From Ptychodera flava (lineage: Eukaryota > Hemichordata > Enteropneusta > Ptychoderidae), in assembly GCF_041260155.1 (NCBI RefSeq), contig NW_027248377.1, forward strand, positions 342,501 to 406,500: a stretch of 64,000 bases of DNA, in the 5' to 3' direction. The notes beneath the pieces are model-generated. The model did no database searches. It worked only from the letters and a program-made list of their open reading frames with translations, and had not been told where the DNA came from. Within the stretch, counting starts at the first letter, position 1. Each line of letters starts with the position of its first letter. The translations under genes and the position numbers were made by a program. Shown here one piece after another: positions 17,553 through 54,696 of the stretch.

Positions 17553-17591
<39 letters not shown>

Positions 17592-24436: not shown

Positions 24437-24490
24437 GCAACAATCCAAGGACCAAGCTAGGGAGCAACAATCCAAGGACCAAGCTAGGGA
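24437..24490. repeat. 27-bp tandem duplication
   Basis: Two exact adjacent copies of a unit starting GCAACAATCCAAGGACC (24437-24463 and 24464-24490). Confidence 0.9.

Positions 24491-25106: not shown

Positions 25107-25107
<1 letters not shown>

Positions 25108-25158
<51 letters not shown>
25108..25158. repeat. (GA)n microsatellite
   Basis: About 24-25 uninterrupted GA dinucleotides, within the 4.8-kb TIR element. Confidence 0.95.
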
Positions 25159-25160
<2 letters not shown>

Positions 25161-30100: not shown

Positions 30101-32167
30101 AATAAAGATTTAAGAAAAAATGGTATACTTCTTTTTATCTCAAGAAATAAATTTAAATGTACACATACTGGACTGCCATGATCCTACTGTATTGACAATT
30201 AAAATGATGTAAAGTGCTCTCAGTATTTACAATGTGTCACTTTTTAACATTCTTGAAAATCTCCTCCATCTATTAATTCATGGTTACATTCCTGATGTGT
30301 GTTTACATTTAACGACATCTATTCAAAACATTAGGAATATATTGGACTTAAGAAAAAAGTGATTGACATGCTGACCAAGCATATGATTTACACTTATAAT
30401 CATACTTGTATAAATTCAAAAGCTATCAAAACCAGGTTTCAGCAAGTGTGAATGATTGCTGATCTATTGTCAAAAAGAGGGCAGTTTGAGGTCAGAATAA
30501 AGCTGTAGGCTTTTAATCGAAGTTCCTCTTCTACTTTCCTTCTTACTCATTAACCAGAGATTTTAAAAGTGGGGCGCCACTAGAGTCACTTAATGTTAAT
30601 TTTCTTAGTATTCAGCCAGTGTGGACAAAATTATTTGATATGCAAGTCATCTGTCTGGCCAAAATATTCATGACAGACTTAGATTTGAAATCTTCCAAAA
30701 GTGCAATAATGCATTTACTCAGGAGATAACTTGACATGATTACTCATCATAGGAGTCTTGCATTGAACAATAACCAAGTACTGTGTCAATAGCGATCAAA
30801 ACAGTTTGTCAGATTCATTCAGATGTTGGATGATACCAGTACTGAGAACTCCTTCAGAGTTTACTCTACCAATGTATGGCAGTGGTCAATATTCTCTATA
30901 ACCCCAGGGTAGACCTTTTGTTGATGGATATGAGTTTATGGTCTTAATACAGTGTAGAAATAAGGTGTAGAAATCTTCATTTATCAAGATTCCATGGCAA
31001 TGATCATTTGAGGTTGTGTATTTTTACAGTGGTTTTGATTTCACAGAGAGAAAGTTAATATATGAACATTATATTGTATTTATTGTATATAATGATGCAC
31101 TTGGTGTATCACAACAACTTTTATTGCAGATGGTATGATCGAAATAGGTACAACGTACACAAAGCTCTTTTTCTGTTGAATTGGTTATCAACACAGACAT
31201 GTTATATATACAGTAAAATTATGATCAATTAGACAGTTCTTGCTGAAGCTTTGCTACATAGGCTTATTGCAATAGTATGATATCTTACTTGTCTTTCTGT
31301 TAGATTTCAAAATTTATGCTGTACCATAATTATTTGTAATAAATATAACCATTGACAATTAGGAATGTGGTGTGATGTTAGGCCATCAAAAACAATTACA
31401 GAATCAGAGAGAGTGAAGGAAATTACTGTAATCATGAAAGATAATGGGAATATTTTGTGCACAGTTCAAGTTTTTAGTACTTTATTATTTTGGTTAATTA
31501 TTCAGTTATTCACCAATTAAAAAGAATAACATTGTGTTTTTATATTATTTTCACAAGTTTTTCTTACAAGACCATGTACATGTATTTTCTTGCCTGAAGG
31601 ATGTTACAATACAAATAATCACAACGTCACCAATAACAGTTAATTTTGTACATTGTGTGTCATTGGAGACAAATGCATCAGTCTCTAATGTAGTTTTCAA
31701 CAATATACTGAACATAACATTCATGCAGGCTGTATTGACAATTTGACTACGATACATGGCAACATAATTTGCTTTTGAGAAGAAGAAACTGCATTAAAAA
31801 TACACTCAGCCAATCTGGTAAAATTCTGGGGAAAAAACAGCCAAAGTTAGAGCATGTGCAACTTTAATGTACACAAATTCAGTCTGACAATTTTAGAAAC
31901 AAAAGTGAGGATTCATTTAAAGGGAAACCTAAGTCAAGAATTGCTGCATAATCTTGATATCAAGAACAGTACAAATTGCAGCGTAATACCATCCCAGCCA
32001 CTGTACCTAAGAGATGCTAGGATCTTAATTTTTCTGTTGTCATTAAAGGAGGATGGAAAAGTGAGTTCAGTGGTCTGTTGATGCCATTCACTGTATATTT
32101 TGTCTAATCAGTCAACTCAACAATTAACAATTCTTTTAACAATTTATCATTTCATTTTGTCTTTCAG
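27111..32167. other. AT-rich DNA, probably intergenic or intron; no exon supported
   Basis: No exon, RNA gene or mobile element could be supported. From about 31930 the sequence is related to 38940-39120 and forms the upstream part of the first microexon unit. Several short frames (for example 29160-29420, 31534-31746) lack splice or domain support. Confidence 0.5.
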
Positions 32168-32188
32168 AGTGGGGCAAGGCAATTGATG
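32168..32188 (+). CDS. 21-nt microexon 1 of an unrecognised host gene
   Basis: Acceptor TTTTGTCTTTCAG and donor GTAAGC bound exactly 21 bases. In the only frame open in all members of the series (two bases complete a codon, one is left over) it encodes W-G-K-A-I-D, with split codons that make Glu at the joins. It shares about 30 bases of upstream intron and about 100 bases of downstream intron with microexons 2 to 4. The gene is not recognised; the residues resemble a charged linker. Coding status is inferred from splice signals and phase only. Confidence 0.6.
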
Positions 32189-33157
32189 GTAAGCCAAATA
32201 CTGTGCACATTTTCATCATGTTTATTCCATCCCCGCACTTGTCACATACCGGTAGTGGTGTGGATGTAAAGTCAGTCTGACACTCTGAAATCAAACCAAT
32301 CAATGATTATTGTATATAATTATAATATGGAAAAATACGATAAATTTGGAAGAAATCAATATGGATTGCTGCGTAGAATAGTCAGGATGTATAAATTATG
32401 ACTGAAGAAGTATGACCTCATCCATGGACGTCTTTTTTTATGTCCATGCCTCATCACAGTCCCGTGGTTTGTACCTCTATTTGTTGTGTTGTCAACAGAG
32501 ATGTTAAAAGCAGTAGTTAAAATGGTCTGTTTATGTTTTTCATGATTCACTCTGTCCCATTAATAGACTTCAAAGTCAGACTTCAGCATTGTGAGTGGCA
32601 GTAAATGATATAACTTTGGAAATAGCTTGCAGTGGGCTTATCTTACATTAAACATGGATTAGGAACTTCATTGGTAACAGTGTCATTGTCATAGTTTGTA
32701 TCAGAAGAGGCATCATCGTTGGAATTATAAATTTATCTTTGAAAATACAAATGAAATGTTTTTCTGCAAGTTTTTCAAAGTACTTTCAATTCATGTTGTT
32801 TTACAATGGGAATATCATGCAGTTGATGAAATGGTGATGCATTAATTCTGCAAGCGTGTTAATTGTGTCAGTATGGATATATTGTAATTTCTTAGAAGTG
32901 TGGACATTGGTCTGAATGACATGTATTCCTATGGACGTCTGACACTTTCAAGATATTATTCAGAGCATTGATGCATGCCATTGACAGAAATTTCATAGGG
33001 GTGGATTTGCTGTGTGGTTTATATTTCATATAAAGGAGAGATCTTTGAATGACAACAATCTGAACTTTACAAAAACTTATTTTAAAATTGATATGTTTCA
33101 TAATTGTTACCACCATGCTTTCAGTTTTGTTTGTTGTGATATCAGAAGGGAGGTATG
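32189..33157. other. Intron of the microexon gene
   Basis: The first 100 bases resemble the introns following microexons 2 and 3 (TTCCATCC...CAC, then CAGTCTGACACT). The rest holds nothing recognisable. Confidence 0.45.
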
Positions 33158-34441
33158 TAATTGTCTCACAACTGACATTGTACGAACAGAAGTACGGCCT
33201 CGTACTTTCACAGAACGAGTGACGTAATGTACCCATACTTTCAAAATACGAGTGACGTACAATGCTGGTTTATCATACACAGCAAGATTTTGACGTAAGG
33301 CCGTAAAATTCATTAGTGAAGCTGCGGTTTGTATTAGGAACTATTTTTAGACCCTCTCCAATCTTGAACTCCAAAATCTATTTGTCTGGACTCAACTACG
33401 TCACGTTGAAAATTACCAGCAAGGAGACTATTATTATGCAAATGACCACAGCTGCATTTCTCCGCAGTAGTGAGACTAAGTTATACATTTTTTCAGCTTT
33501 TCTCCTCTTTCTTTCGAATAAAGATGATAAACCCTTGCACTTCCAAGCCTTAAATAATTGTACACGCCGCTGTCCCACACAAGCGCGGTGCTGTCGACTC
33601 CAAGCTATGTTTCACACGCTGCATGCCTGCCAGCTAATTTATGCATACGTTTGCAATAACCTCAGGAACAGCTGTGCGGGCCTGCTCATGTTCCGTCGAT
33701 CGATATTTTTAGAAATCTGGAGACATGGCACATCACATTTTTATTTTAATAGTTTACAAAATATGTAAGAAGCATTGATTTTGTCGAAAATTCTGAAAAA
33801 AATATAGGAAGATTTTATCGCGAACACATTTTCACTTGGGGTCGACATGGGGTCGCAGCCATGTTGCCTCAAAACTTATTTCTGTCTGCACTCAAAACTC
33901 AAAACTTTCGAATATGAACCTGTAAAATCGGTCATTTTGTCAAACTTCGGCGAAATTTAACTCTATAGACAAGATTTCATCTAGGTAAGGTAAATTTACT
34001 GAAATTTGATCGACAAATAATCCTGAATTTGAACCTGACAGCTCGCCTTCTCCGGGAAGTCAAGCATCAAGCTGTCCATACACAGCTGCCCATATTGCTT
34101 GGTTTATGAGATTGTTTTCAAGCGACGGCGGTAGACCGTACGGGGCTCTGGATATGAACCTACCGCCGGTGTAGCTGTAATAACTGTTGCGTTGTTTTTT
34201 CTTGAAGTTTTTTTTACATTAAACCTGCCATATTCCTTCAAATTACAACGAGATTTTTTTCGATCACACAGCCATGTATTGCAATATGTCACTCGCAAAA
34301 GTATGCTGAACACAGACAGGCTATAGAGAAATACTGACATTACGTCACTTGTACGGTGAAATTGCGGCACATTACGTCACTCGTAATTTGCTCGTACGAG
34401 CTCGTACGTCTGCTCGTAGTTCGTCCGTTTTGAGACGATTA
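33158..34441. mobile_element. 1.28-kb TIR element with repeated TGACGTAA motifs
   Basis: The inverted ends pair from TAATTGTCTCACAAC (33158) with the complement of GAGACGATTA (to 34441) over about 100 bases. Each arm contains ACGAGTGACGTAATG twice or nearly so. No transposase is seen; a 150-codon frame at 33316-33768 has no recognisable domain. It interrupts the intron between microexons 1 and 2. A clear target duplication was not found. Confidence 0.65.
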
Positions 34442-34813
34442 GATAAATGCAGAAGGGTTAAATTGTAATCATACAAGTCGTTGAAACCATGGTACCGGTA
34501 TATTAGTGTTGCTTGATCTACCGGTATATGACTTGTGCTTCCATGGATATCTGCATACTCACATTGAAATCTGTATTTCCAGTATTACAACTTTAGTATA
34601 CCTGGAAGTAGTCTTTTAAACAGTTGTACAATCAACGCTGTGTCAATTATGTCAATTACAATTGGAGAAAATAAAATGGTTACTTGATAAAGTGTCCTGC
34701 CAATTACAAAAATGATCGAAACACCGGTTGTTGTACCCGTAAAGTTTGCTTTAATTCATTCAATATTTGTTACCATGGTTTTTAAAAAATTATTATTTCA
34801 TTTTGTCTTTCAG

Positions 34814-34834
34814 AGTTGGAAATAGCAAAATACG
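34814..34834 (+). CDS. 21-nt microexon 2 of an unrecognised host gene
   Basis: Bounded by TTTTGTCTTTCAG and GTAAGG, 21 bases. Encodes L-E-I-A-K-Y plus split Glu codons in the shared frame; the first frame contains a stop, which supports the chosen phase. About 200 bases upstream and 130 bases downstream are close to those of microexon 3, showing tandem duplication of the whole exon-intron unit (spacing to the next exon 1088 bases). Confidence 0.65.
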
Positions 34835-35901
34835 GTAAGGAAGAACTGCCTCAGCCTATCATTTTCTAACATACTCATTCCATCCACACATTTCTCACAC
34901 TGCAGTATTGATACATATTCAGTCTGACACTTTCAAGATATACATGTATTGCAGGATCACTACAGACATGGAAAAGAATTGAATCTCTGTGAGATTAATT
35001 AGGGCCATCATTTTGCAAGCACAATTAAGTTCTGTATAGTCATTGTGGAAAAGTGTCAGGACCTTGCATCTATTATATTCTACTTCTCCTTTTTGTGTCA
35101 GGTCCTTGTGCTATGATATAGTGTTTACAGTACTCTCTCTCTCTCAGGCCTGCTTGTTCTGATTTTGAAAATGTTGTCTAGGTTGCGTTAATAATCTGTT
35201 GCATTCACTCTACCAAGTTTATTGAGGTTATATAAAAAAAGAAATTTGAGAGTCAAAGACTTAACTAGTCATGATGCTTATTGAGGATTTAATGTAGAAA
35301 AGGAAGAGTAACTTATAAATATCAAGTTCATTATGTTTTGAAGTTTCTTAATTTTTCTTGAAGCTGTTTTATTTCTGCACTCTCAGTATTGACATAGTTA
35401 TACTGGTACAAGAGATTTAAGACTTGACAAGAGAGATTACTTGAATATGTAGCTCCATGCTTTGCAAAAGAAAATGTTTGTCTGTGGCTACTCTGTCACC
35501 CATCTTGTGGTCTGTACATCATGTAATGTTCAACTTTGTTTACTCTTGAAATTGATTTGACTCATTAAAAGAAATTACAGTCCTGTCACAAAGAATCATT
35601 AAAATTTGATGGAATTTTCTAGTACTGACCACTTGCAATGGTTCTTCAGCAGTCCATGGACATATTGGAGTGGTATGAGGTCATTGTCTGAGTCTTTTAA
35701 ACTGTTGTAGAATCAACGCTGTGTACATTATGTGAATAAAAACAATCAGAGTAAAGGAAATTACTTGATAAAGTGTCTTGCCAATTACAAATATGATGGA
35801 AACACCATTTGTTATACCAGTATGCAGCTAAGTTTGGTTTATTTCATTCAATATTTTTTACCATTGTTTTTAACAAATTATCATTTCACTTTGTCTTTCA
35901 G

Positions 35902-35922
35902 AGTGGAGAAAGGCATCTCGAG
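35902..35922 (+). CDS. 21-nt microexon 3 of an unrecognised host gene
   Basis: Bounded by CACTTTGTCTTTCAG and GTAAGA, 21 bases, encoding W-R-K-A-S-R plus split Glu codons. The flanking introns align with those of microexon 2 (AACTGTCTCAGCCTATCATTT after the donor). The residues resemble microexon 1 (W-x-K-A). A 152-bp insertion follows in its downstream intron. Confidence 0.65.
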
Positions 35923-35985
35923 GTAAGACAGAACTGTCTCAGCCTATCATTTACTAGCATGCTCATTCCATCCACACACTTCTCA

Positions 35986-36147
35986 CACTGATCAACCCAG
36001 CTTCTTGGAAGCTGTTATCTAATTGAATGGCTGAATCTGACCGTTATAATTGAATAATACAAATAGGCTCCCTAAGTTGCTGTGAATAGTGACAATCGAC
36101 CAATCAGATAGAATCTTCTGAGGACGCGCTGCACATCAGCAGCACTG
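35986..36147. mobile_element. 152-bp insertion with 5-bp CACTG duplication
   Basis: Compared with the paralogous intron after microexon 2 (ACACTGCAGTATTGATAC), this copy has 152 extra bases (35991-36142) flanked by CACTG at 35986-35990 and 36143-36147. The paralogue serves as the empty site. There are no clear inverted ends, so the element type is unknown. Confidence 0.7.
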
Positions 36148-36660
36148 CAGTGTTGATACAAATTCAGTCTGATACTTTCAAGATATATAGCAGGATCATT
36201 GTAATCTGAAGTCCTGTTAACAATGACAGAAAGCTATAATATGAATAATCCATCTGTATACCATATATTTCTTTTGTAAAAGTTGTGTGTTTGTGTCATT
36301 GAAGAACTCATTGAAATGTGGTAGAATTTTCTTCTACTTTCTATATACTAACATGCAGTGGTTCTGCAGTGTCCATAGGCATATTAGAGTGATGGCATGT
36401 CTTTGTCTTAGTATTTGAAAGTAGTCTTGAACTTTTGTGTCAAAATGAATAATTGTTGGTGAATGTCAGCATTGGCATCAAAGAATACATTTTGTTATTG
36501 ATTAACAAATGAAATTACGTGTAAAAAAAAGAGTAAAGGAAATTTCTTGTAGTCTTGCTCATTACTAAAAATGAAAGGATTGCTGTGCAAGTGTGTGGCT
36601 TAAGTTGTTTGATTTGAAGTTTTTTCATCAATTTATTTAACATTTATTTGTCACAATTTT

Positions 36661-37965
36661 TAGCTACTATAGACTATAGTCTATAGAAGCTATTGGGATG
36701 GGTATCCGTCCGGCGTCCGTCGTCAGTCTGTATGTATGTATGTATGTATGTATGTATGTATGTATGTCCGTTTGTGAGGCGTCCGTCCACTCAAATATCT
36801 TGAGAACCGCAGTACTTACTGATTTGATATTTGTTGTGTAGATGAAAAATACGATTTTGAGAAACTGTTTTTTTTAATTTTTTGATATTGTTGAAAATAG
36901 GCAAATTAATGCCAAAAGAGGTGTTTTTGGTAAAAAATCTTCTTCTTCATAACCGCTGGTCAGACAGCTTTGTTATTTGGTATACAGGTCCCTAGGGGTA
37001 ACCCAACTTAGACTTGTTCAAATTGTGATGAAATATGCAAATCTGTATTTTTAAGGAATTTTTTTGTCATTTTGGTCAAAATTGACTGACATTGTATGTA
37101 ATTCTTGTACTGTATAAACCCTATCAATTCACCCAGAAAAAAATAATTAATATGATTTTAAATAATTGAATTAATTAGGAAATCATCAAAGCCAAAATAA
37201 TTTTAGTGTAGAATTATCAGAAAGTTCAACTTTTTTTGACAGTTCATAGTGAAATGCTTACCATCTTGGAGGATTAAAAACATGTAAAGGCAACTTTCCT
37301 GAATCCCAACTTTGACATATTCTGAACCGTCATTTATTGTGCCCTGTATGTTATCTAAAAGAAATTGCTCAAAATAGTCAATAGAGATAGAGATAGAGAT
37401 AGAGATAGAGAAAGTTCTAATTTCCATTTATGGTTGACTTGGTAAGGATAAAATAAAATTACTTTTTGAGGAAAAAAATATAGAGTGGTCAATTAAAAGA
37501 GTGGTCAAAGTGATAGGGTTTTTATGGTAAAGCTGGGCTGTATAAAGATTCCTCATGTGCTATTTATAGCAATTATGCAATCTGTGTAAACAGTGCAATG
37601 AAAGTGTAACATGATTCCTTATAATGCTTTTGATGACCTTGAACTTCTTAAGTTTCAAACCTTTGTCTCTTCAGTGTGCTTTCTCTGAGTATGTACAGTC
37701 TCAACTTATTAAACAGAACTCACAATGTTAATCAAAGATATCCACCTTCTTCATCAATACATGTGTCACAAAAGGTTATTCTCTACATAACTCAACAGAG
37801 CTCTGTCAACTGTTGAGTTGCTTGTTCTTTCAAAACCGCTGGTCAGACAGCTTTAATATTTAGTTTACTTGTCCGTTGGATGACCTTAGTGAGATAATTT
37901 CATACAGTAAGGAAATACTTAATTTTGTATCCATGTCTATAGTAGCTTCAGGGACTTTGGCCCTA
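36661..37965. mobile_element. ~1.3-kb MITE-like element with GCTACTATAGAC ends
   Basis: Begins TAGCTACTATAGACTATAG and ends near GTCTATAGTAGCTTCAGGG, so the end motifs are inverted. The paralogous introns show it is an insertion between TTGTCACAATTTT and TTTTAACAAAATATC. The interior has GTCCGTCCGGCGTCCG, a (TATG)n run at 36725-36768, two ATAACCGCTGGTCAGACAGC-like blocks and a (GAGATA)n run near 37380-37412. No transposase is seen. Confidence 0.65.
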
Positions 37966-38000
37966 TGTTTTAACAAAATATCATTTCATTTTGCCTTCAG

Positions 38001-38021
38001 AGGTACAGAAGTCTGGAAAAG
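38001..38021 (+). CDS. 21-nt microexon 4 of an unrecognised host gene
   Basis: Bounded by CATTTTGCCTTCAG and GTAAGC, 21 bases, encoding V-Q-K-S-G-K plus split Glu codons. It is the most diverged member of the series, but its acceptor side (TATCATTTCATTTTG) and donor side (AAATACTGTTTTACTCATT) still align with the others. Length, phase and splice signals are preserved despite sequence change, which is the best sign of coding use. Confidence 0.6.
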
Positions 38022-39480
38022 GTAAGCGAAAACTATCCCAAATACTGTTTTACTCATTTCGTCCCTACATGTACACCTGGAAAGTGTATAGAAGTGCTAT
38101 TTCAAGTATTGATACAGAGCTTTAAAATCAACAAGAACACCATTTAAAAATCTGATCATCAACAGCAACAAATATTTTGTATGAAACTTGAGGAAGTCGC
38201 TTTTTTACAATTTACTGACATGTTTACTTTTCTGTTTGTAAGCACACACCGCTACACAGGATATGGCGTTCAAGGAATTTAATAAGCAACAGTGGACAAA
38301 TACAAAGCAGTGATAACCTAACTACAGAAAATACAATGTCAAGCAAAACTACAAAGTAAAATCTAGGCAAAAATCCATTTCAAAACTAAGCACAAAATAA
38401 CTCAAAGATTGGGTGAGGGGTCTCCGCCAGTCTGCTTCCTGGGCAAAGGTTTGGGTTGCAAAGTTGTGTTTGCAGACCTTTGGAAAGCCGAAAGTGAAAA
38501 TGGTTCCACTGGGCCGGTGAAGACCACCTTCTTGAGTGGGGGTACATGCAATAGACGGCCCAAAATGGGAAGCAGACTAGTGGAATCACGGAGGAGATGG
38601 GGTTGGTGGCGGGATAGCTTGGCAGACAGCCTGATGGCCTAGAATGAACGAACTTGGACCAGAAACGTGCAGCAGTAGGCTTAGGTTAAGTGTAATGCGC
38701 AAGTAAGATTGGTAGCTAGATAGCGGGTGCTAAGGTGTCTACGTCAGCAGATGAGTAGTTAGATAGCCAGTATTAAGATGTCTATGCCAACAAAATGGAA
38801 AGCTGGAAAGCAGGTATTGAGCTGTCTACGTCAGCAATGCAAAGTGACTTCGGGACATGTTTGTTCTGCAGGCAGCCTATCTCCGTGGACTTACAAACAT
38901 GATTTGTGTTAACACACAATTCCTTATTTTGTAAGAACTTCAGGGTAGAGTACATACAGATTCTGTAAAAGAGAATCCCACTGCAGCCACTCTACCACAA
39001 GGGATGCTGGGATTTCTGTGTTTCTTTGCAGTCAGACAATGAAAAAGTGATAACAGTGGTCTGTATGTACTATTTGCTGTACATTTTGTCTTATCAGTCA
39101 ACTTTACACTGAGACTTCAACTTCACAATTTGTTGGGTATGATGGATTTCCTATGTGTATTTTCTCATCTGTAATAAAAGTACATGAAAACTGAAATAAT
39201 TTTTATGAAGTTGTTCACAAAGCAGTTTGGTTTGTTGTGATATCAAAGAGATGAAATTGTATAGTATGAATTAAGAAAACTTTCAATAATTGTAAATGGA
39301 CTTCATATCACTTTTAAAGGCCTATTAATTCAATTTCAAGGAAATATTGTATCCATGAAAATCTTGAAGATGTGGTTGTAATCCAAATGATGACCATCAA
39401 ACCTTTACTTTTATTTCTCAATCAATACAAGTGTAATAAGCTAATTAAAACTACAAAAGTGTTGCTGACCAAAGCCAGTC
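38022..39480. other. Intron with an unclassified insertion and a fifth, exon-less unit
   Basis: 38246-38880 is GC-richer and contains three degenerate copies of about 60 bases (TAGATAGC...TGTCTACGTCAGCA); I could not classify it. 38940-39120 matches the upstream part of the microexon 1 unit (GCAGCCACT...TACCACAAGGGATGCT and GTCTTATCAGTCAACT), but the microexon itself is absent. Confidence 0.5.
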
Positions 39481-40400
39481 TGTCGACAGGGTTAAATATT
39501 CTTGAATATTATTTTCAAATTTTCAATTCACTGCCAAAAATATTTTTCTCATTACTAGAAAAGAAATCTTATATCAAGAAAAATTATCTTGAATCAAGAA
39601 ATTTTATCTTGGGAGTATACCTAGAAAATATAACTTGTTTCTGCACATGGTTTATATCTTGAAAAGAGAAAAAATTTTCCTAAATCAAGAAAACTTTATA
39701 TCTTGAACCAAGAAAATGTTTCCTAGATCAAGTAACAGTATATCTTGAGACAAGAAAATTTTTCCTGAATCGAGAAATCTACATATCTTGAAACAAGAAA
39801 ACTTCTTAAATCAAGATAAATACAAATCTTGAAATAAGAAAACGGTTTCTTACATCAAGTTAATTTATTTCTCACTTAATTTTTCACTTTTCTCAATTCA
39901 AGATTTTTTTTATTTCAGAAAAGACAAGAAAACATAAAACTCAATTCAAGAATTTTATTTTCTTAATATCCCCATCTGAGTGAGATAAAAATTCTTACAT
40001 CAAATTTTACAAATTCTAGTAAACTTCTCAAAACAAGATTTTTCTTATTTAAGATTTGCCATTTTTCTCAAAACAAGAAATTTGGGAGTATAGCTACAAA
40101 TAACATCTTGTTTGGAAATATTTCTTGTTTTCAGCTGTAAATAAGATATTCCAAAATCTTGAAAACAAGAAAATTAACATGGTACAGGTTTCTTAAAATT
40201 GAAAATAAGTTCAAACAGATTTCTTACATCAAGAATCTTTAAATTCTTAGAATTTTTTTAAAACAAGATGTTTTCTTAATCTAAGATGTCCTTTTTTCTT
40301 GAAATAAATCCACAAAAGAAGAAAATTAACACAGTACACCTTTCTTGAAATAATTAAAAAGATTAATCAAGAAAATTAACATTGACACAATTTCTTCTTT
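39480..40400. repeat. Degenerate palindrome-rich array (TCTTGAATCAAGAA)
   Basis: Dozens of variants of a self-complementary motif such as ATCTTGAATCAAGAAA occur in a loose array of about 53-bp units, AT-rich and poorly homogenised. The same motif forms a second array at 48740-49600. Confidence 0.7.
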
Positions 40401-43219
40401 TAATAACATGATGACCTTTGGTCATTATGTTAAAAATGGGATAACACACAGGTTTCTAGCTTAAAACGGACATCAGCTGTATCTTTTGTCTATATCTTTA
40501 GTTTTCTGGTTCAGTAAATCCACTACAGTTAATTGCTATGTCATGCAGCCAATTTAGAGAAATTCTCATGTGAAACAAATTTAAAGTAAGTAAAAACATG
40601 CAAGACTAGGTCATTTTCTGACCAATTTGAGATTGGGGTCTTCCCATTTCAACATCGCGGTATGATGGGCCTTTTTTTAAACGTGTTGACATTTTAGCCT
40701 GCTTGTAAAAAAAATACAACCAATATAGAGTCAAATTTACCACTTCAATGTTTGTTACATGTACTGGATGTTTTGTTGCAACATATTTAACTCTGCTGAT
40801 AAATCAGCAAAATATACAAATTCACCAGATTACAGCAGATGCCATTTCAAAGGAAGTTTCACAATTCATTGTCCTTCTGGCTCAAGGGTCTATGACATTG
40901 GTATTGTTTGTATTCAAATCCAAACTGGTATTCATTTGACCATTTCACATCTACCGGTACAGGCTGTGTTGACAATCGTAATAATGGGCATTCAAGCATG
41001 ATAAAATGGACTAGGATCAGAAACTGTAGTTGATATACAGAAAAACAATACTGAAAAAATAGAAAAAGATACAGCTGGAGTCAATGTAAATGAAGAATTC
41101 GTTCTTTTATAAAAGCAAACTAAGCAGTAGCACATGCATGACTCAAAAATTATCCAAAATGGAATTGAAAAATTTCATGAATATTGTATTTAGTGGTTTC
41201 ACTATTCAACTGCATAGACCTATTCAGTTTGTATATTCAAATGGAACAGTTCAGTCTATAGGGCAACTTAATTTTAGTTATGCTTATTTTGATAAACAAG
41301 TTTTGATATTTTTTTCAGTATTCTGATTCCCTGTATCCAATAATTTTTGTATTAATTCTGAAATGCTATACTATTCTTTGCGTTGAAGTTTAACGACCCA
41401 CGAGCACATCACAGAACATAGTTTCTTTGGAGATTTCATTATCATTACATGTCCATTGAAACCTATATGTTTGCAATTGTTTCTTCAGGGTATTTGATTT
41501 ACAATGCAAAATTTTCAAGAGACAAATTTTACTTTCTAAATAACCAAGTGTTTGTTATACTGATGATTGTTATTGTGAAATTCTACCCGATGAAAGGGAA
41601 TAATTGGTTTTCGTTGGAATCTGACATTAAATCAATCCCAACAATCATTATCATTCAAGGCAAATGAAATTTCCAGGAACAAAATACAACAACACCCACT
41701 GACCAAACCAATAGTACAATTTCTAACCACTTGTCAATTGCAGTGGTGGTAATGGTTGTCCTGAGTTGGTAAGCCTTCCCTGCAAGCATACTGCATACAT
41801 CAAGTTGAACTAAAGTGACAAAGTAATTGTGCGGAGGTTCAGAGCAACTTATTACAGTTGTGAATCAAGGGATTCAGCTGTCTCTCATAAGACCTGCATG
41901 GCACTGATGGAATCATGCAATTAACCTAAATTGTTATGTATGCCGTTTACACAAAATATATTGCACACTAAGCTGTATGACAAAAGGACCAATTTCAATT
42001 TTGAAATCATTTCTGTATTTGACCAGTAATTATATAATTTTCCAACTTGTGCATGGTGTATGGATTTCACAATTCCTGAGATACTGTAGAGTTTATCGGT
42101 GTGACTTTCAAGTGAGAGACAGCTTTTTAGTCTTAAAGCTTTTGAAACGGGGATTTTTCACAAAGCAGGTCGGCTAGATATTTAAGACGTTCTGTGGTAG
42201 ATGTGGCAATCTTACATCCAAATATGACAAATGTAACACTCTGATGATGAGAAACAGTATTCACGACTTCGACCCGGTATTTTGACAGCAAGTTGGGTAA
42301 TTGTACTATAACCTTGTCACTTTAGTCCAATCATGAGCTGTAGCATGCTAGTAGGGTATGCTTACCAGATCTGGGTACCCAGTATCACCATTTGACCAGT
42401 AGTTCTATTACAAACCATCAGTTATAACGAACGTAAACTGTGTCCCCCAAGAGTTTTGCATGGTTAATCAGACACAACGTAGAATGGAGAGCAAACGTAA
42501 AAGGTGACTCTTAAGAGTGATATGATGTTCGTTCTTCATAATGAACACTTCAATTTAACGAAAATTTCTATGTACCCCAGCCATCATGATCATAATAGCA
42601 AGGGTCTACTGTATTAATTTAAAAACCTCAATACTGTACATCACTATGAAACTGTTTCTTGTGACTGTTAATTTTATACAAAATGTTGTGTGGTACACTG
42701 GTCAATGTTTCTAGGGTTTTCGATTTTTGGATCATCACACATATTGTGTGATTCCTTACTCGTATGGCATCAAACCAACCTGGCCTTGAAATTGCAATTT
42801 TCTATAAAACTTTCCAAAGTCCTATGGCTATATGTTCCTACCGTCAAGCTCCTTTCTCTTGCTGGATTCTATACAATGACAGTCATCTGTTATTCAGCGA
42901 CGGGATACATCCACAACATGCCAAAGTTGTCAATACTGATGAAATAAAAAAAAAGACAGTGTATGAACAACAAGGAGCATAGCATACAATTTTTCACAAG
43001 ACAAAGAACACGAATTAGAGCTAAAGCTGTCCCTTTAATGATCTTAGTAACTGAAATGTGTCATATATTCACAATAGCTTAAAAACACAAATTTATCTGG
43101 CATTTTTGAAGCGTCCGTAGCGTTGACATTGAGGACTGTCACTACCTAGTACCTACCGATGCAAAGTACAATTGTCAAACTTTGTGAAATTGCTACAATG
43201 TTGCAGAGGTAAAAAAAAA
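40401..43219. other. AT-rich intron or intergenic DNA, no gene recognised
   Basis: Only short open frames without domain or splice support. A stretch near 40930-40990 resembles 31700-31740 (GTACAGGCTGTGTTGACAAT), indicating another diverged duplication. Confidence 0.45.
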
Positions 43220-44262
43220 AATTGGCGCCGGCGCGAAGCCATTGATTGCAGATCGGGAAAACCAAGGACAGTTCAGTTCGGTTGACGGGATTAGTAATCC
43301 TTTCAGGATTCTGGTCATCCCTCTAGACTTCTCTGGTTTCATAGTACAAGTCAATGACGTTTTTGAAAGCATTTACTGTTGGCGCTGTAACAACTTCATC
43401 TGGCAGACTGTTCCATTCGTTTACTATCCTGCATGAGAAGTAGTACTTCCTGACATCCAGTTTCGCGTGAGTTTTCTGTCTTTTGTGAATATGACCTCTC
43501 GTTGACCTACTGTGTGGTTTATGGAACTTCAGATTGCAGTGATCAATGTTGGACATTATTTTATACATCTGGATCATATCTCCACGTCGTCTTCTTAAAC
43601 TTAAAGATGTCAAGTGTAGTTTTTTCAGTCTCTCTTCATATGGTAAATGACGTAAATCTGGTATAAGTCGTGTGGCTCTTCTCTGCACTTTTTCAATCAT
43701 GTTTATGTCTTTCTGTAGCCATGGTGACCACGCTTGTATGGCATATTCCAGTGATGGTCGGACAAACTGCTTGTATAGTCTCATCATGATGTCTTTTGAT
43801 TTAAATGAAAATGATCTCTTGATTAATCCCAGAGTCTTGTTTGCTTTTTTCACTGCTTCCGCACATTGACAGGCTGGTTTAAGTGATTCATGAATTGTAA
43901 CTCCAATGTCTTTTTCTTTTGATACTGTTGCTAGTGAAACTGCATTCATATCGTAGTGAAAGTTCTGGTTTTTAGGACCAATATGCATAACTTTACACTT
44001 GTCAACGTTGAACTGCATCTGCCATGTAGCTGACCAATTCAGGAGCGTGTCCAAGTCTGCTTGTAACTCTTTGTTGTCCTGTTCTGTTTCAACACGTCTG
44101 TACACCTTGGTATCATCTGCAAACTTTTTTACTTTTGAGTGAATACCAGAATCGATGTCATTTATGTAAATTAAAAACAAAGTTGGTCCCAACACAGATC
44201 CCTGGGGGACGCCACTGGTTACTAGAGACCAATCTGAGCAAGCACCTCGAATAACAACACGT
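43220..44262 (-). mobile_element. 5'-truncated LINE (CR1/L2-like) reverse transcriptase
   Basis: Minus-strand frame readable from about 44262 (RVVIRGACSDWSLVTSG) through 43323, about 310 codons. It contains the reverse-transcriptase core with SGVPQGSVLGP, LFLIYINDI and the catalytic FADDTK (about 44110), then thumb-like NVDKCKVMHIG, QFVRPSLEYAIQAWSPW, KVQRRATRLIP and the conserved C-terminal RKYYFSCRIVNEWNSLPDEVV. This order is typical of CR1/L2/Rex1-type non-LTR elements. The endonuclease and first half of the polymerase are missing, cut abruptly at 44262, as expected from incomplete target-primed reverse transcription. The remaining frame is uninterrupted to its stop at 43323, so the insertion is fairly young. 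The exact 3' end was not resolved. Confidence 0.9.
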
Positions 44263-44802
44263 TAGGACGTGCGCCATTTTTGGAAAAAAAAATTATATTT
44301 CGTAAAAATGACGTTCGATACAATAAAATGGCCAAACTTCGTATCAAATATTTTCTTTTAAATTGAAAACTCAGTGATGAAAAGATAAAACAAGAAAGAT
44401 CTCACGATTTGTCAGTCGTCATACAGGTAATACTCATGTTGAAGAAACTATCACGACGACAAACATGAAATATGTTGAAAGTTTAGTCAATTTCTTACCG
44501 TATTTTTACTGCCAGTCCTCTTGTCGTTGACCTCTAGTAGTTTTTTTTCTCGTGAATATTGCTGTAGACATTTTACCAGTGACATCGACAGCGGCCATAG
44601 TCCCGATAGACAGACAACCGCTGCGCGACCTCTGTTGTTTTTTCAAACGTCTCTTCGTCGCAATATTACTTCTCAACTTGTCCATTCATTGCGATTCGAA
44701 ATCTGGTCTTTGGACAAAAAAAAATACGAGCTAGCGACGTTCTTCTAAAAGGCCAGTACTGGGGCTTCAGCTGGTTCTCGATCACGGCTTTCATTTGCGT
44801 AC

Positions 44803-46821
44803 TCCGTACACGCGGTCCTACTAAAAACTGCCCGGCAATGCCCGGCAATGCCGGCAGACAAAACAGACACTGCCCGGCACGAAATAAGCGCGTCAGCTAT
44901 CACAAGAAGTCGATATCTACATACCACAGACCACTAACTCTTATTAAAATCCTAAAAAACCATAGTTCAAGCCTCGAAAACGTCGATTACTGGTTTATAG
45001 TTACGGCGTTCGTAACCTACGCTGGGCCGGCCCTACGCAATCTTGTTTACAGTAGCGAGCCCAGTCACTGAGGGCGCCTATTCTGGAGCAATGTAAACAT
45101 AAGTGAAATAGTTGTATGCAATCCTCGGTGTCTTTGTCCCAAAAACGTAAATCCAACTTAGAAATAGTTCCTTAAACATACCAACATCCACTGGATGAAA
45201 ACCTGTATAGTAAAATGCGCTTGTACAGAAAGCTTGGTCAGTAAATATCGAACGGCAAAACGCACCAATCGTACATGGAAGCTGCCATATTGGGAAATTA
45301 CGACATCTCTGAAGGAAATCGCGCGAGATTTGGAATGACCAGTGGAGGTGCGTGACAGCAAGTAAACAACGTCATTTGATCTCCCGCAGGCGATGGAAGC
45401 GGAATTTCGCCCAACGGAGCCAAATTGCCGTAGTTTTTAGGTAAGTCTGCAAATTATGATATAGTGACTCATTTATCTATCGATATGTAACCGTAGACGA
45501 ACGTCAGACGCTATGTAAAGGACAAATTAGGTTATTCCCCTTCCATTGACATCAAAAAAAAGCGCTATCGGTGATTGCGCATTTCAGCGCCAGTCAAATT
45601 TCCGGCGATGGAACACTTTGCAAACAAAGAACATCGGTAGGGCAGGCAGAACTTTCTTATTTAAATGACAATGCCATCTGAAGTACAGCGTGGAAAGTTG
45701 TATAGATGTACCCAAAAAATTAAAGCTGTGCAAGCAGGTGTGAAGTATTGGCACCAAATTTTATGTTAATATTTGCAAATGATATGCAAATGAAGTCATG
45801 ATAAATACAATGATGCAGAAATTGTTATCTCACATTATATGAAGACAGCTACATGTATGCGTGTGCTTGGTGAGTGTTGTATTGTACGTTACACACACAC
45901 TCTTACAGAGACACACAACCCAACTAACAAAAGCATTTTCTTTTTAAAACACAGTAAAATAATGTAATAGTTATAGGACAAAGGTTTTTGTGTCATAAGT
46001 ATGAAGTGGTAGGTGTAGAAATGTTTTTTATGATTTTTTAGGTTTAAAACACAATTTCATACTTCAAAAGTGTTATTTTGTACTTCACCAGGTTAAGCAC
46101 CTTCACAGTTACAAATTTGACCCTGAACAAGACTTGATAGGTGGTAATGAATACTTCCTAATATGTAAATTTTTACACGCTCATTTGCATATCAAAAGAC
46201 AGCCATTTTGGAAATTTGTCAGAATGTTCAGCCCAAATACCACATTTTAAATCAGCGTTTCTCACTCATTATGCCTCAAAATGCTTTCTTTTTTTCAGAT
46301 CCCGTACTTTTGGGACCACACTTCCAGAAGAAGTTGTCTGATCCCTGTAAAACTTCAATAAAAAATTTCCAGTGGGATAGCTATTTACAGAACCAACTAT
46401 TTACTGAGAGAAGGGGTAGTAGCCTATCGAAATTTAAACGAAACTTCGCCTTGTACTTTGAAGTCTTGCTGGATGGGGTGTCCGAAAGCAAGTGCTTGCA
46501 TATTGCATTTGACAGTTCCAGATTCCCGGTTTTTTTTTTCCACTTTTAATGTTATCGATGTACAATTCATTATTCTGAGGGCTAACTGGCCCAGCGTAAG
46601 GTTACAAACGCCGTAACTAAAGACCAGTAAATCGACGTTTTGAGGCTTGAACTATCGTGTTTAGGTTTTTATAAGAGTTAGTGGTCTGTGGTATGTAGAT
46701 ATAAATTTTCTTGTGATAACTGACGCGCTATTTCGTGCCGGGCAGTGCCCTGTTTGTCGCCGGGCAGTGCCAGGCATTGCCGGGCATTGCCGGGCAGTTT
46801 TTAGTAGGACCCCTCCGTACA
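44803..46821. mobile_element. 2.0-kb hAT-like non-autonomous element with ~220-bp TIRs
   Basis: The exact 8-bp direct repeat TCCGTACA (44803-44810 and 46814-46821) flanks inverted arms 44811-45030 and 46586-46813. The arms start GGTCCTACTAAAAACTGCCC and contain repeated GCCCGGCAAT. An 8-bp duplication and a GGGGTCC-type end suggest hAT. The interior lacks a transposase but has a CpG-rich segment with ATGGAAGCGGAATTTCGCCC (45393), a consensus donor TTTTTAG/GTAAGT (45440/45441) and a strong acceptor TTTTTTTCAG ending at 46298. Confidence 0.85.
46299..46549 (+). pseudogene. Possible exon inside the hAT-like element, function unknown
   Basis: After the strong acceptor ending at 46298, about 83 codons are open to a TAA at 46547, with a protein-like composition (LLGPHFQKKLSDPC, FALYFEVLLDGVSESK). 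I do not recognise it. The upstream candidate exon (about 45393-45440) ends in TAG before its donor, so the spliced product would not read straight through. It may be a remnant of the parent transposase's last exon or captured host sequence. Confidence 0.3.
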
Positions 46822-47915
46822 TACTGTCACGGGCCCGGGGTTACCCGATGTAGATGGTGTGTTGACTCACGTCACTAGCTCCGTCTGATCGATTCATCTT
46901 CGCTGGAATAAGTCTTATCCGAAGGAAGTGTTTGTTCCTTTAAATGGTGGAAGAAATCCAAGGACATTCTCATTCAAAAAATGTAATTTCGAGATAGTTT
47001 GTTTATCAGACGACTACCTGCATGCAGTCAGCCAGGCCAGCAGCTTGTGAAGTAAACAGGCGCGCGCAGATAAAAAAGGTCAGAGGTCATAAACTGCACG
47101 GCTAGGGCTGTCACTCACATTACACAACCGTAATGCGTAAACCAATACAAATGTTTTCAGCGTGGTTTTAGAGCTTTGTCCATTCATTGCGATTCGAAAT
47201 CAAAGTCCTGTGATATGAGAATATATTCTAGGACGCGCCATAGCGCAATTAAATCTCGAATGGCTGTCATTTCAACGTTCGATGCGTCACTAAAGGCGCA
47301 ACATTGTGTGTGAACGGATCAATCACACGGTGAGTTCACGTAGTTCATACGTTCGTGTAGCTTCGGCCGTCCGACGGTCATCACCTCGGTCATAGTGTGA
47401 CACATAAAACGATTCAGTTACCCATCGACCTTTGTAATTCAATACCCAGTACAGAATATACGGTGGTACATAGGAAGCTGGGTAGAAAGGACTGATGTAG
47501 GGGCAACGGTGTATTTGAGCTGTACGCATGTGGCACAAGCCGCTACGTTGTGGCGAAAAGCTAGTCGCCACTCGTATATTTAACGCCATTATGTGTATAG
47601 TTGATGAACCCGTTTTAGAAAAAGACGATCGGGCAGTCCCTTAAGTCGAAGCGTTTGCAACGTCTACCGTCTGTATAAACGAAACGTTGAACACTGCAGG
47701 GAAAGCATCCATGCTAGGCCGGATGATCCGATCGTTTTGAAGAGCAACATTTTAGGTCGGACACTAAGCTATCTCGTTTGCCTTTTTCCAGAGTAGCCAG
47801 TTCTATGCATAGAACAACACCGCTGTGTAAAACCCTTTGGTGAGAACCAATGATCGCAAATTTGCTAATACATACAAGTTCTGTTTAAAAGTTGATGTAT
47901 CCATCACTTTATGTA
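46822..47915. other. No gene recognised; CpG-rich
   Basis: Mixed-composition DNA with many CpGs. A 22-base stretch TGTCCATTCATTGCGATTCG is repeated directly at about 44680 and 47177, on both sides of the hAT-like element, suggesting an older duplication. No exon or element boundary could be fixed. Confidence 0.4.
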
Positions 47916-48011
47916 GGTCGTACGCACAGGTCCGTGGAGTTGCCGTGTAGTATACATAGAGAGAAGGGCTATGTATACTACACGGCAACTCAACGGACCT
48001 GCGGTCGTACG
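47916..48011. mobile_element. 78-bp palindromic element with 9-bp target duplication
   Basis: The element at 47925-48002 has about 35-bp arms (CAGGTCCGTGGAGTTGCCGT...CTATG and its complement) around a 9-base loop. It is flanked by the exact 9-bp repeat GGTCGTACG (47916-47924 and 48003-48011). It resembles the element at 694 in design and target duplication. Confidence 0.82.
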
Positions 48012-48739
48012 GGTAACTCTCAAGAGTCGATGCGTGAAAAGTAGGGGTCACTCTCGGAAAAATCCTACCGGTGCGGTAAGCTTTGATCATGATTGTTTCC
48101 ACAGTCAAAATCACAGATTAGCAATTTGTACAGTTGTTCAAGTCCGACATACATGTATCAATAATTTATCACACAAGTTACGTAGACAATTGAATCAAAT
48201 GAAACTGTTAGTTTGCTGTCGCCATTGTTGGGCCTGTTGCGTACGTATGGAGGACAACTTTACAGTATGCTTGGTTGGTTACGGGGGCCCTATCTCCAGT
48301 ATGACTATTGTATTTTCTGCAGAAAATTCAAGGGTTTTACATGTGTGTTGATGATGGCCCACTTTGGGACAAGAGGTTTTAATACATCCCAGAATGAACA
48401 CTGAAAAAGTCAGTAGAAACTCTGATTGCTTAAAATAAAGCTTTTTGGCAAAAAATATGGTAACCGATTAAAGAAATAAAATATTACTGCAACAGTGTTG
48501 AGTAAACCTAAATGTTTGTATTATTTGTGTAATTTTGATTTACACATTCTGGTGTGTTTTTCTATAAAAAATACTTTTACTCAATATATTTTGACAGGGG
48601 TTTTCATGGAACATACACAAAACTTTCAATAGAAAATATCCTGTTAGATCACCCATGACCCCCATGCAATAAATGATTAAGTGCAACTGTTCGAGCAGAC
48701 TTTTCAAAGATCTTGCAGAGTTTTAACTTTCCAAAAAAA
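48012..48739. other. No gene recognised
   Basis: AT-rich sequence without supported features. Confidence 0.45.
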
Positions 48740-49600
48740 ATCGGTTAACATGATCTTAAATGTATATTTTGATTTTCTCTCAATGTTGGAATTTTCTTGT
48801 TTGCAACATCAAACACCTTGCAATTTCTTGATAAAACCATTGGGAATATTTTCTTCAATCAAGAAAAATATTCCCATTAATTGTCAGCTCAATACCGAAT
48901 ATAATCTTGCTAGAATGGTTAACATGATCCTAAATCTAGATATTGATTTTCTTAACCCTTTGACTACCACGTTTTTACTGCCTAAATTTGTAAGCAAAAT
49001 TTTTCATATTTTCTTTTATTTTTAATTGACACTGTTTTCCTTTTTTGGCACACAATTTATAGCCTCACACTGATTTTAGACTTTGGTCAAAATTACGTAA
49101 AATTATCATACATACTTTATTATTATTATAGCAGATAATAAGCAGGCTGTTTTGTGGTAGGTGTCAAAAGTTTACAATGACCCTAAAAGGGTTGATGTTA
49201 GAAATTTTATCTTGTTATCAGAATTGAAAACAAAAATATCTTGATAAAACTTACATTGAGAATATTTTTCTTGAATCCAGAAAAATATTCTCAACTGGTC
49301 AGCTCAATACTTAACATGATCTTGCTTGAATGGTTAGCATGATCATAAATCTAGATAATGATTTCCTTAATATAAGAAATTTTATCTTGTTAGCAAAATT
49401 AAATGACTAACAATTTCTTAATAAAACTTATATTGAGAATATTTTTCTTGAATCAAGAATATTTTTCTCAAATCAAGAAAAATTTACTTATTACTTGTTT
49501 AGCTGAATACCAAATAAGATCTTCCTAGAAAACGTTGTAACAATTTTTCTTATTTCAAGAAAATTTATCTCATATTAAGAAAAAATTTCTTGTAAGAAAA
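48740..49600. repeat. ~190-bp degenerate tandem units rich in TCTTGAATCAAGAA palindromes
   Basis: Three to four units restart with AACATGATCNTAAATCTAGAT (about 48748, 48918, 49315 and related sequence at 49490), each with ATATTTTTCTTGAATCAAGAA. One unit is interrupted by the MITE at 48956-49191. The motif is the same as in the array at 39480-40400. Confidence 0.7.
48952..49195. mobile_element. 236-bp piggyBac-like MITE at a TTAA site
   Basis: The insert at 48956-49191 starts CCCTTTGACTACC and ends CCTAAAAGGG. It is flanked by TTAA (48952-48955) and TTGA (49192-49195). The next tandem unit (TTTCCTTAATATAAGAAATT, near 49365) is the matching empty site with one TTAA. This supports TTAA-specific insertion, as in piggyBac elements. 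Confidence 0.75.
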
Positions 49601-51906
49601 ATATTTTAGCACTATTTGATTTGATTTTTAATTTATGTTATTACTAGACTGAGTATGCTTTACACACATTCACATGTGAAAAAATGATTCTGCACTGGAG
49701 AACAATATTGGATTAGATGACATATCTATCTTGGGAGAGAAATATTCCCACTAGATGCTGATATGTCCCTTCAGAGGGAATCTTTCAGATTTTATGGAAG
49801 TACACAGTGTGTTCTGACAGGTGTATGACTCATCTTTTGTGACTCAAATTTTGTGAAGATATTCTAATTACTGAAAAGTTTCTGAAAGTCTAAACATCTG
49901 CGTATTAACTCTATACATATGGTGACTGGCCATGCAGTCCCATATTTTACTGACCAAGGTAAATATACTGGATGATAGCCAAAAAAATGGAGCTCAGACT
50001 TTGTACCATCCATGGTTCATCTTTGTTGTATTAAATTTCAGTTCCAATTCAAAAATTGTTTTTGATGACCTTACCAGCTGATCACATTCTCAAAACTCTA
50101 TCTATTTTGCTATGCTGATGAACTAAGTGATTGATTCATTGTTGCTTCTAGGGGTACTCTAAAACAAATCCTGTGAGATTAAGCAAAAACTTAAAAATCA
50201 TGAAATGATGCCATATGCAATGACTCCATTATGGCTGCTTCTACAATATTATACATGTACTGCAATTGTATTCCTGAGAACATGTGAATAGTTATCATGC
50301 ATATCATAAAAATCTGCCAGTTATCAAAACATTAGAGCATACACAGTGGGGGATGTATTGAAGAGGTAAATTGCAGGTACTATTGCCTTTATTGAATATT
50401 AAGGAGTACATTGCATATCACATGATCTAACTTGTTGTTTCTTAATATATAGTAATGATTCAAAATCAATCTAACATTATTGCAATATTTTTAAACAAGA
50501 CCTTAGAATAAAAATTCAGATCTGATGAATGAATGTCGACTAATGATCGAGTCATTCAATTCACGATTGTCAGCATTTCTGAGTACAGCATTGATGTAGA
50601 CTGGTCATAGGGAGAAGGGAGCCAAGATTACAATGTAGATAGGCAATTTTCTTCCTCCAAAATTGTTGACAAATGCATTGGTCAAGAAATAAGGACATAA
50701 GCCTTATAATCACAGTAAATGTTATTGCTTTGCTGACAAAGTCCACCACTTAGCTTTACATTGCCATCTGGTTATTTTTCATATATACAATATATATAAG
50801 TACCACTGTCACCAAACATGGTGGACTACAATGTTCTAACTGATTAAGACACTGGTGATTGCCAAGATACAAAATTTTTTAGTTTGTTTTTTATTGCCAT
50901 CGCTGTTTCACTTTTTTCTTTTTTTATTTCAAACATGGAGAAATCCTGATCCCAATGACTGATGGTCTAACTTTCATACTTTAATCAAAAACTCAAGCTG
51001 TACCAGAACAATAGTCTTTCGTCACTTCATTAATCAAGTTTCTTTCAGGACATTTAATCATTCTAATGCATTCATTTCAAAATACTCAGCTGAACACAAT
51101 GTAGAACTTTGAATGGGATTACAATCAGGCTTCCAGATGAAAATGAATGAAAATTATGCGTGGAAATGGTTGCAGCTCCAGTGGATATATAGCACAGCAT
51201 ATAGTCTCTTCGCTGTGGTCAGGATATCAAGTGCAGTGCTATAGTGATGGCTGCATTATTCATAATAAATAATCTTCAATTCCTAATACTGTGAGCAACT
51301 GACTAGGCATTTACTCATTAGCACGAAAAACTTTTCCACTGATTAACAGGTGTCAATGGGTTCCCTATTAGCATGCTTGTCACGTCTGTTTCTTGGGCCA
51401 AAATATTTGATCATAAAAAAATACAATAATTCAGTCTCTTAAAGGTGCTACAGATACACATTGTCAATTGGGTCCTAGGTAAAAATTGGTCTAGCGTCAG
51501 AAATGGGATTCCTGATCAACTCAAAGTTTGTATATGTGAGCATTGCCTTACAGTCTAAGTTATTCAGTTTAGTTTCTTCTTTGTATCCTTGTGCATAATT
51601 ATGACCTCTGTAAATATGTAAAGGATAAATGTGAGTTGCAACACAAAGATGGATGTTCATTAATTTCAAAATTCATTTTCTCAAATTTATTTGACATGTG
51701 TAATTGTGTCTTCTTGTACAAATGAAACTGTAACTTGTAAACAAGTAAAGACAATGAAAAATACAGATTGAAATCTCTCAAAACAAATGGATTTCTTTGT
51801 ACCTATAAATCTAGCATATTAGATCATTGACAGCTAAAGTTTGGTGATGTGATGACTTCCATTCATATAATACCATAATTAATGTACATTGTATATTTCC
51901 TTTCAG
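49601..51906. other. AT-rich DNA, presumed intron; no gene recognised
   Basis: No supported coding sequence, repeat structure or RNA gene. Confidence 0.45.
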
Positions 51907-51936
51907 AAAGACATGGCTTGGGAGCTACAGAGGAAG
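51907..51936 (+). CDS. 30-nt candidate exon in the same phase as the microexons
   Basis: Acceptor TATATTTCCTTTCAG and donor GTGAGA bound 30 bases. Read in the microexon phase (two bases, nine codons, one base) it gives R-H-G-L-G-A-T-E-E after a split Glu codon, with no stop. The flanking introns do not match the 21-nt units. It may be the next exon of the same gene 13.9 kb downstream, but a chance splice-like pair cannot be excluded. Confidence 0.4.
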
Positions 51937-52066
51937 GTGAGAATCAAATCTTACAAATATGTTAAATGTTGTTTATAGCTTTAATTTCACTACACAATAT
52001 GTATATCATGGGGAGTTTGATTTAAATGAGTGAACATCTGTCTGACTCTCTGTTTAACTATCTACA

Positions 52067-53655: not shown

Positions 53656-54431
53656 TCGTATATACCGTATAATATTATATAGGGCTGAGAGCCCTTGGTG
53701 TTGTGCCAGGCGTTGAGATTAAAAATGTTATTTGTATCGATTCATGATTAATAATCATAAAGGATAAAATAGAATTAATTGTTACTTTCTATATACGTTT
53801 GTATAAGTATGACCGGTTTACCCTCTGATGACAGTTCACGTACACGATGTCAGACCCTGTAGGTATAGATTTTCTGTTATGTGTAAAAATGTTTGACATA
53901 AATGTGCAATTTTTACCATGATTACTATCTATTGTGTTCAACAAAGGACGTATTGTGCCATCATTAACTTTGCAATAGTAACTGTACTGCCAAACTTCCA
54001 ATATTGTAAGCTGAAAACCAGCGTTACTTCTAAATACAGGTAAATTTTGCATATACCGGGGTAGTTATTGACACAGAGGGCGCCTTTTAAGATGCAATCC
54101 CAGCATTCTTTGCAAATGTTCTTGTTCATATGCACGACAGTTTTCTCTCTTCTTTTAATTTTTAGGCGTGATAAGAAATTTTGTATCAACGACAGGGTGG
54201 ATAATAATAATTACTCGCTAATAGAAAAGATATATTTTATTAATGGCATGTTATAAAATAATAGAGAGCACGTTTCGAATTTGTTTACTTACGAGCACTC
54301 AAAAAAACATGGCGGCGCCCATGAAAGAAGGGTACACTTCCGGTTACTCGCAGAGTATATTATGAATATGCGCATGCGTAGTCAGTAAGCCGCTGGCGCG
54401 ACTATAATATGTATCCATACATACTTTTCCA
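53656..54431. other. No gene recognised
   Basis: AT-rich sequence; a short CpG-rich piece near 54300-54420 (ATGGCGGCGCCCATG) could be a promoter fragment. Nothing further is supported. Confidence 0.4.
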
Positions 54432-54696
54432 TTTTTTGCTCACGTGTGAACACGTGAGCATATGTCGCAGCGATGTCTGTCTGTCTGTGTGTCTGTCTGT
54501 CTGTCTGTTGGTCCATTTTCTCAAAAACGGCTGAACGTATTTCAGTCAAATTTGGTAGACATCTTCAGAATTCAAATGGCTAGAACTGAAAAGGTTTTGG
54601 TGGGCGTGGCTTGGATATTAATGAAGTTATGAAAGTTTTAATTTTTCTGTTACGCCGCGTATGACAAGTGAAAACAATCGACTGTTTGAGGGCGCT
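54432..54696 (+). mobile_element. AGCGCCCTCA-family MITE, second plus-strand copy
   Basis: Hairpin GCTCACGTGTGAACACGTGAGC, then the same CATATGTCGCAGCGATGTCT, (GTCT)n and GGTCCATTTTCTC as at 14046, ending GTTTGAGGGCGCT at 54696. The left AGCGCCCTCA end is not visible. It abuts the 5' end of Helentron copy 2. Confidence 0.75.

Follow-up and report, generated by a model that had tools for sequence, protein, structure and literature searches.

A probable cassette of four tandem 21-nt microexons with diverged coding segments in the acorn worm Ptychodera flava

Four 21-nt blocks stand in tandem on the plus strand of the 64,000-nt stretch of Ptychodera flava DNA analysed here (hereafter the window). 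We consider that they probably form a cassette of symmetric microexons in a plus strand coding gene, made by tandem duplication and diversified by selection, each copy adding seven residues when included and removing them when skipped. The common origin of the blocks, the retention of their exact length and frame, and their strong splice sites can be seen in the sequence itself. How might such a cassette have arisen? A unit consisting of an exon and its intron flanks was probably duplicated into a tandem array within a protein-coding gene, and the array would later have been stretched, in part, by mobile-element-like inserts. The microexon blocks would be spliced into the mRNA and, because any subset of them keeps the frame, their inclusion would vary, so that the protein would gain up to four seven-residue segments, or none, patterned as E-hydrophobic-x-K-A-x-x. 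Selection would have favoured different residues in each copy, mainly at positions 3, 6 and 7, which suggests a segment that tunes an exposed linker or a helical stretch and not a catalytic fold.

The microexon array and its origin

32168-32188, plus strand: microexon copy 1, EWGKAID with the split Glu; acceptor rank 22 of 3421, donor rank 20 of 3851; flanks match copies 2-4
34814-34834, plus strand: microexon copy 2, ELEIAKY; acceptor rank 21 of 3421, donor rank 12 of 3851; flanks similar to those of copy 3 (81.5% identity over 303 columns)
35902-35922, plus strand: microexon copy 3, EWRKASR; acceptor rank 25 of 3421, donor rank 9 of 3851; flanks similar to those of copy 2 (81.5%)
38001-38021, plus strand: microexon copy 4, EVQKSGK; acceptor rank 28 of 3421, donor rank 2 of 3851; 86-89% identical to copies 1-3 over the 36 columns up to the acceptor

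The first-pass annotation had reported these blocks, each with a CAG acceptor and a GTAAG donor, and all four were verified at their positions on the plus strand. Scored with generic splice matrices entered from general knowledge, their acceptors rank 21-28 among the 3421 AG dinucleotides of that strand and their donors 2-20 among its 3851 GT dinucleotides. Counting acceptor and donor pairs separated by 9-60 nt in which each site scores 9 or more, we found four on the plus strand and none on the minus strand; they comprise three of the four blocks and the segment 45390-45440, copy 1 falling just short with a donor score of 8.998. In 60 dinucleotide shuffles the mean number of such pairs was 0.3 (maximum 3), and a 21-nt pair appeared in none. 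The four blocks with their strong short splice pairs exceed chance expectation.

Only one frame, with two leading bases and a single trailing one, stays open throughout the four blocks; of the other two, one is stopped in block 1 and the other in block 2, as had been claimed. In the open frame each microexon begins with the second base of a codon and closes with the first base of another. The codon split at the joins (G followed by AG) encodes Glu, and the four seven-residue peptides proposed earlier are all correct. An open common frame in exons this short is weak evidence taken alone; together, four lengths of 21 nt and a common open frame support the earlier description of symmetric, frame-neutral microexons that add seven codons each. 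Residues 3, 6 and 7 are different in every one of the four copies, and Cys is absent from all four peptides. A search of the PDB with the 28 joined residues gave no matches at E≤10.

The following segments bear on the origin and spacing of the array.

34610-34902, plus strand: tandem unit surrounding copy 2, with its homologue at 35691-35990 (81.5% identity, E=8.9e-80)
35691-35990, plus strand: tandem unit around copy 3, homologous to 34610-34902 over about 300 columns around the exon
38984-39103, plus strand: possible exon-less remnant of a fifth unit, similar to the upstream flank of copy 1 (31995-32117; 75% over 124 columns)
33154-34445, no strand assigned: insert separating copies 1 and 2, its inverted ends about 106 nt long (33154-33259 and 34445-34341, 74.5%)
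36662-37947, no strand assigned: probable insert whose end lies 53 nt before copy 4; its inverted ends match perfectly over 13 nt (36662-36674 and 37935-37947)

Judging from these matches, the four microexons are tandem copies of one unit, an exon with its intron flanks, that were spread apart later. Blast matches among the flanks show that homologous flanks repeat in tandem on one strand within 6 kb, the identity of matched flanks among copies being 69-89%; shorter matches (76.9% over 121 columns, 69.2% over 159 columns and 86-89% over 36 columns) link copies 1 and 4. Because the flanks are homologous, the four blocks are not independent coincidences. The earlier reading of an in-phase series stands, but it had overlooked both this shared origin and the divergence of exon over intron, and it had included a non-homologous exon at 51907. 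A profile built from the four copies recovers those four by construction; five further rows had E values of 1.3-9.2, and no fifth copy rose above threshold. The segment 38984-39103 may be a degenerate fifth unit, in which no exon-like splice pair was found at the cut-offs used.

The copies are unequally spaced, at 2646, 1088 and 2099 nt from start to start. The insert at 33154-34445 appears mobile-element-like; that at 36662-37947 is probably a mobile-element-like insert with inverted ends as well, its end match (E=0.069 with that stretch searched against itself) being weak alone. These two probable inserts, and a shorter gap near 35991-36142, would explain the unequal spacing in part, since the spacings minus the inserts (about 1354, 1088 and 659 nt) are still unequal.

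Other segments of the window also resemble exons, among them the one that had been appended to the series.

51907-51936, plus strand: 30-nt exon candidate, acceptor 8.2 (rank 75 of 3421), donor 10.6 (rank 4 of 3851), open in all three frames

The strong splice sites of this block were upheld, and it seems a good exon candidate; its supposed agreement in phase with the array is not established, because it can be read in any of the three frames. The donor reads GTGAG, no similarity links the flanks to those of the four copies, and the block is not homologous to the array, in which its membership is doubtful. Looser phase-1 microexon candidates fill 14 rows on the plus strand and 12 on the minus strand, and 51907-51936 (8.2 and 10.6) and 56246-56269 (11.0 and 7.3) outscore every minus strand row (best 8.2 and 8.4). 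The latter, on the plus strand, is a 24-nt exon-like block with an acceptor of 11.0 and a donor of 7.3, open in the phase of the array. Neither matches the array, and neither was taken as a member of it. The 51-nt block at 45390-45440 on the plus strand has very strong splice sites (10.2 and 10.4), and its sole open frame differs from the array phase. Longer exon candidates, many of them overlapping, gave 64 rows on the plus strand and 72 on the minus strand; because the plus strand is not favoured, none was adopted.

Exon change compared with intron change

On the aligned copies, the exon sequence has evidently diverged faster than the flanking intron. Compared pairwise, the exons have just 8-14 of 21 bases alike, whereas copies 1-3 have 31-32 of their final 34 intron bases in common; once a one-base gap is allowed, the intron end of copy 4 shows 3-4 differences in 33 bases. 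Differences in exon and flanks were compared by Fisher tests, which are not independent of one another because the copies are related.

Copies 2 and 3 (the cleanest pair): exon 11/21, flanks 32/260, P=3.6e-5
Copies 1 and 2: exon 9/21, flanks 16/95, P=0.013
Copies 1 and 3: exon 7/21, flanks 12/86, P=0.044
Copies 1 and 4: exon 13/21, flanks 14/79, P=1.5e-4
Copies 2 and 4: exon 12/21, flanks 16/83, P=0.001
Copies 3 and 4: exon 13/21, flanks 4/36, P=9e-5 (little flank aligned)

When splice-site bases were removed, five of the six pairs gave P≤0.04, and the pair 1 and 3 was not significant (P=0.099). In the alignment of copies 2 and 3, the exon window holds 11 mismatches and any non-overlapping 21-column window at most 6, gaps being uncounted; an alternative alignment of these copies with compensating gaps leaves about 6 mismatches and 3 gap events in the exon by a hand count. 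Maximum likelihood on all four copies, whose four-way alignment of the downstream flanks is poor in places, gave an exon rate 3.0 times that of the flanks (likelihood-ratio statistic 13.2, P=2.9e-4). For the 18-base exon core the ratio was 3.4 (statistic 12.2, P=5e-4), and with splice-site columns dropped from the flanks it was 2.1 (statistic 6.1, P=0.013). The control statistics, from 18 sliding windows, included 7.4 and 6.4 in two fast windows and 10.6 in the slowest, so that the full and core tests lie above all 18 controls and the test without splice-site columns lies below the fastest of them. In 36 codon pairs we counted 29 nonsynonymous, no synonymous and 7 identical. A local mutational hotspot is a possible source of the excess change in the exons.

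Exons that outpace their own introns are unusual, and are often a sign of conflict or of adaptive tuning. Microexons that are equal, frame-neutral and arranged in tandem amount to a natural experiment, since the intron context is common to the copies and exon-specific selection can be measured within one gene. Short exons are easily overlooked by annotation, and a search for strong short splice pairs combined with flank homology could therefore find others.

Host-gene context and competing explanations

Inspection of the splice-site lists by eye revealed no neighbouring coding exon and no start, stop or terminal exon; the larger exons of the host gene may have been overlooked or may be located beyond the window. 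Pfam was searched with stop-masked plus strand frames of 8701-16032, 16001-31002, 31001-38502 and 38001-52802 (three frames each) and of 52701-58400 (one frame in full, the others as far as about 55702), with three stop-masked minus strand frames of 23001-52802, and in an extra search with four long frames of mobile elements. Outside the mobile elements no family was found at cutoff in the frames searched, reverse transcriptase being the only family at cutoff in the stop-masked frames. Rows below cutoff were DUF6394 (E=0.16), DUF3915 (0.23), Atrophin-1 (0.26 and 0.76) and EGF_MSP1_1 (0.29). A weak sub-cutoff match to the sodium:alanine symporter family (Na_Ala_symp, E=0.014) lies upstream of the array at 29412-29567 on the plus strand. 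A tRNA scan and an Rfam scan of the window gave no matches.

The recognisable proteins in the window are Helitron frames and the reverse transcriptase, and such mobile elements fit an animal. Scanning prokaryote genomes with this reverse transcriptase gave 18 pattern matches, of which none was confirmed. Two Helitron copies lie inverted to each other (3267-6712 and 62664-59224, 94.5%; 7639-10422 and 59367-56642, 91.4%); more inverted blocks extend inward as far as about 13.9 kb on one side and 54.7 kb on the other. The left copy has Helitron-like N and PIF1 helicase matches, and both carry an OTU domain (7968-8591 and 58495-59403). About 15 copies of a 63-nt repeat, open on both strands, occupy 6829-7789 in the OTU-linked region, and a 535-aa frame on the other strand (6309-7916) spans them. 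A 225-nt tandem array at 14509-16090 has an inverted related array at 10424-11479, with up to 91.5% identity.

Could the blocks be dead or non-coding exons, belonging to a UTR, a long non-coding RNA or a fossil array? The searches made around the array yielded no recognisable coding exon, start, stop or domain, in agreement with this reading, which we consider unlikely: all four copies have kept strong splice sites and exact length despite high exon divergence, and neutral exons would be expected to diverge like introns, whereas these have diverged faster. A choice of one microexon out of four, yielding one alternative seven-residue loop in a miniature Dscam-like manner, is also unlikely, though slightly less so. 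Mutually exclusive exons are usually tandem and homologous, equal in length and phase, and diverged in sequence; the array has this layout, and the differences at residues 3, 6 and 7 among all copies fit such a choice. However, double inclusion of 21-nt exons carries no frameshift penalty, and no shared docking site stood out beyond three column-shuffled controls when 24-nt sites in 27-54 kb were tested for pairing to the flanks (-160 to +130) of all four copies, the best site reaching -18.3 kcal/mol or better and the controls -17.8, -18.5 and -19.5 kcal/mol.

A special case of the diversified cassette, whose odds overlap with it, would make each exon one heptad of a helix, with position 2 as a, position 5 as d and the invariant Glu as g. 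If one exon is exactly one heptad, skipping would alter the length of the helix and leave the coiled-coil register unchanged; if true, the protein would possess a helix adjustable by whole heptads through splicing. Position 2 is W, L, W and V and position 5 is A, A, A and S; within-exon permutations attain the hydrophobic contrast of a and d in 1.2% of cases, and shuffles attain the helical moment of the 28 residues in 4.5%. On the other hand, column permutations, which respect the common origin, reach the contrast in 34% of cases, and Ala, Ser and Gly, which are poor core residues, suit a helix core badly. The idea of one heptad per exon is attractive but weak, and we regard such modules as quite unlikely; its fuller form, in which splicing would add or remove whole heptads while diversifying selection rewrote them faster than the introns change, is slightly less likely still. 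Kinship with the effector-type microexon families, the schistosome micro-exon genes or the aphid bicycle genes, is very improbable. The microexons are symmetric and, like the internal exons of bicycle genes as described in excerpts of PMC9168663, begin at codon position 2 and evolve fast; yet they are far fewer than the bicycle average of about 17 given there, their peptides are without Cys, and no signal-peptide first exon was recognised by eye among plus strand donors scoring at least 7.5.

Relation to known systems

The first-pass annotation had likened the array to schistosome micro-exon genes. As excerpted from PMC10526429 and PMC4015677, these have short symmetric exons, mostly multiples of three (6-81 bp), which are separated by long introns and can be skipped with the frame kept; they have an N-terminal signal peptide in common, up to 75% of their coding sequence is microexon, and most of the short exons are 15 bp. 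The likeness in architecture holds, in that the array too consists of short symmetric exons skippable without a frame change; membership is unsupported, the array being four homologous 21-nt exons with no recognised signal-peptide exon. Aphid bicycle genes, according to excerpts of PMC9168663, have numerous small internal exons beginning at codon position 2, show positive selection, number about 17 exons on average and at least five, and carry a CYC motif. All four microexons share the two leading bases, but only four exons are sure. The defining extras of bicycle genes were not found, and membership of neither family was adopted. Tandem duplicated exon substitution events, as outlined in an excerpt of PMC9741552, likewise involve alternative exons of tandem origin; the array differs in an exon of just 21 nt and in a docking-site scan that gave no signal beyond its three controls.

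By analogy, troponin T would be the nearest architectural precedent found, closer than the schistosome genes. In some birds, seven P exons encode seven tandem AHH[A/E]E pentapeptides (excerpts of PMC11016001 and PMC5062619), and in human TNNT3 most of the alternative 5′ exons fall in one phase class (excerpt of PMC2447309); the title of a 1986 paper on these troponin T exons speaks of 'unusual interspecies divergence'. The P exons of avian fast skeletal troponin T (TNNT3), or mammalian exons 4-8, resemble the array in that several small alternative exons lengthen a variable region, whereas their units are five-residue and rich in His and Glu and those of the array are seven-residue and contain W, K and A. 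The Pfam Troponin family was not matched at E≤1 in any of the stretches searched, a search that short exons could escape and that downstream exons beyond the window may have evaded. In searches of open-licence papers, the titles and the openings of the abstracts showed no matching hypervariable, heptad or tandem microexon array.
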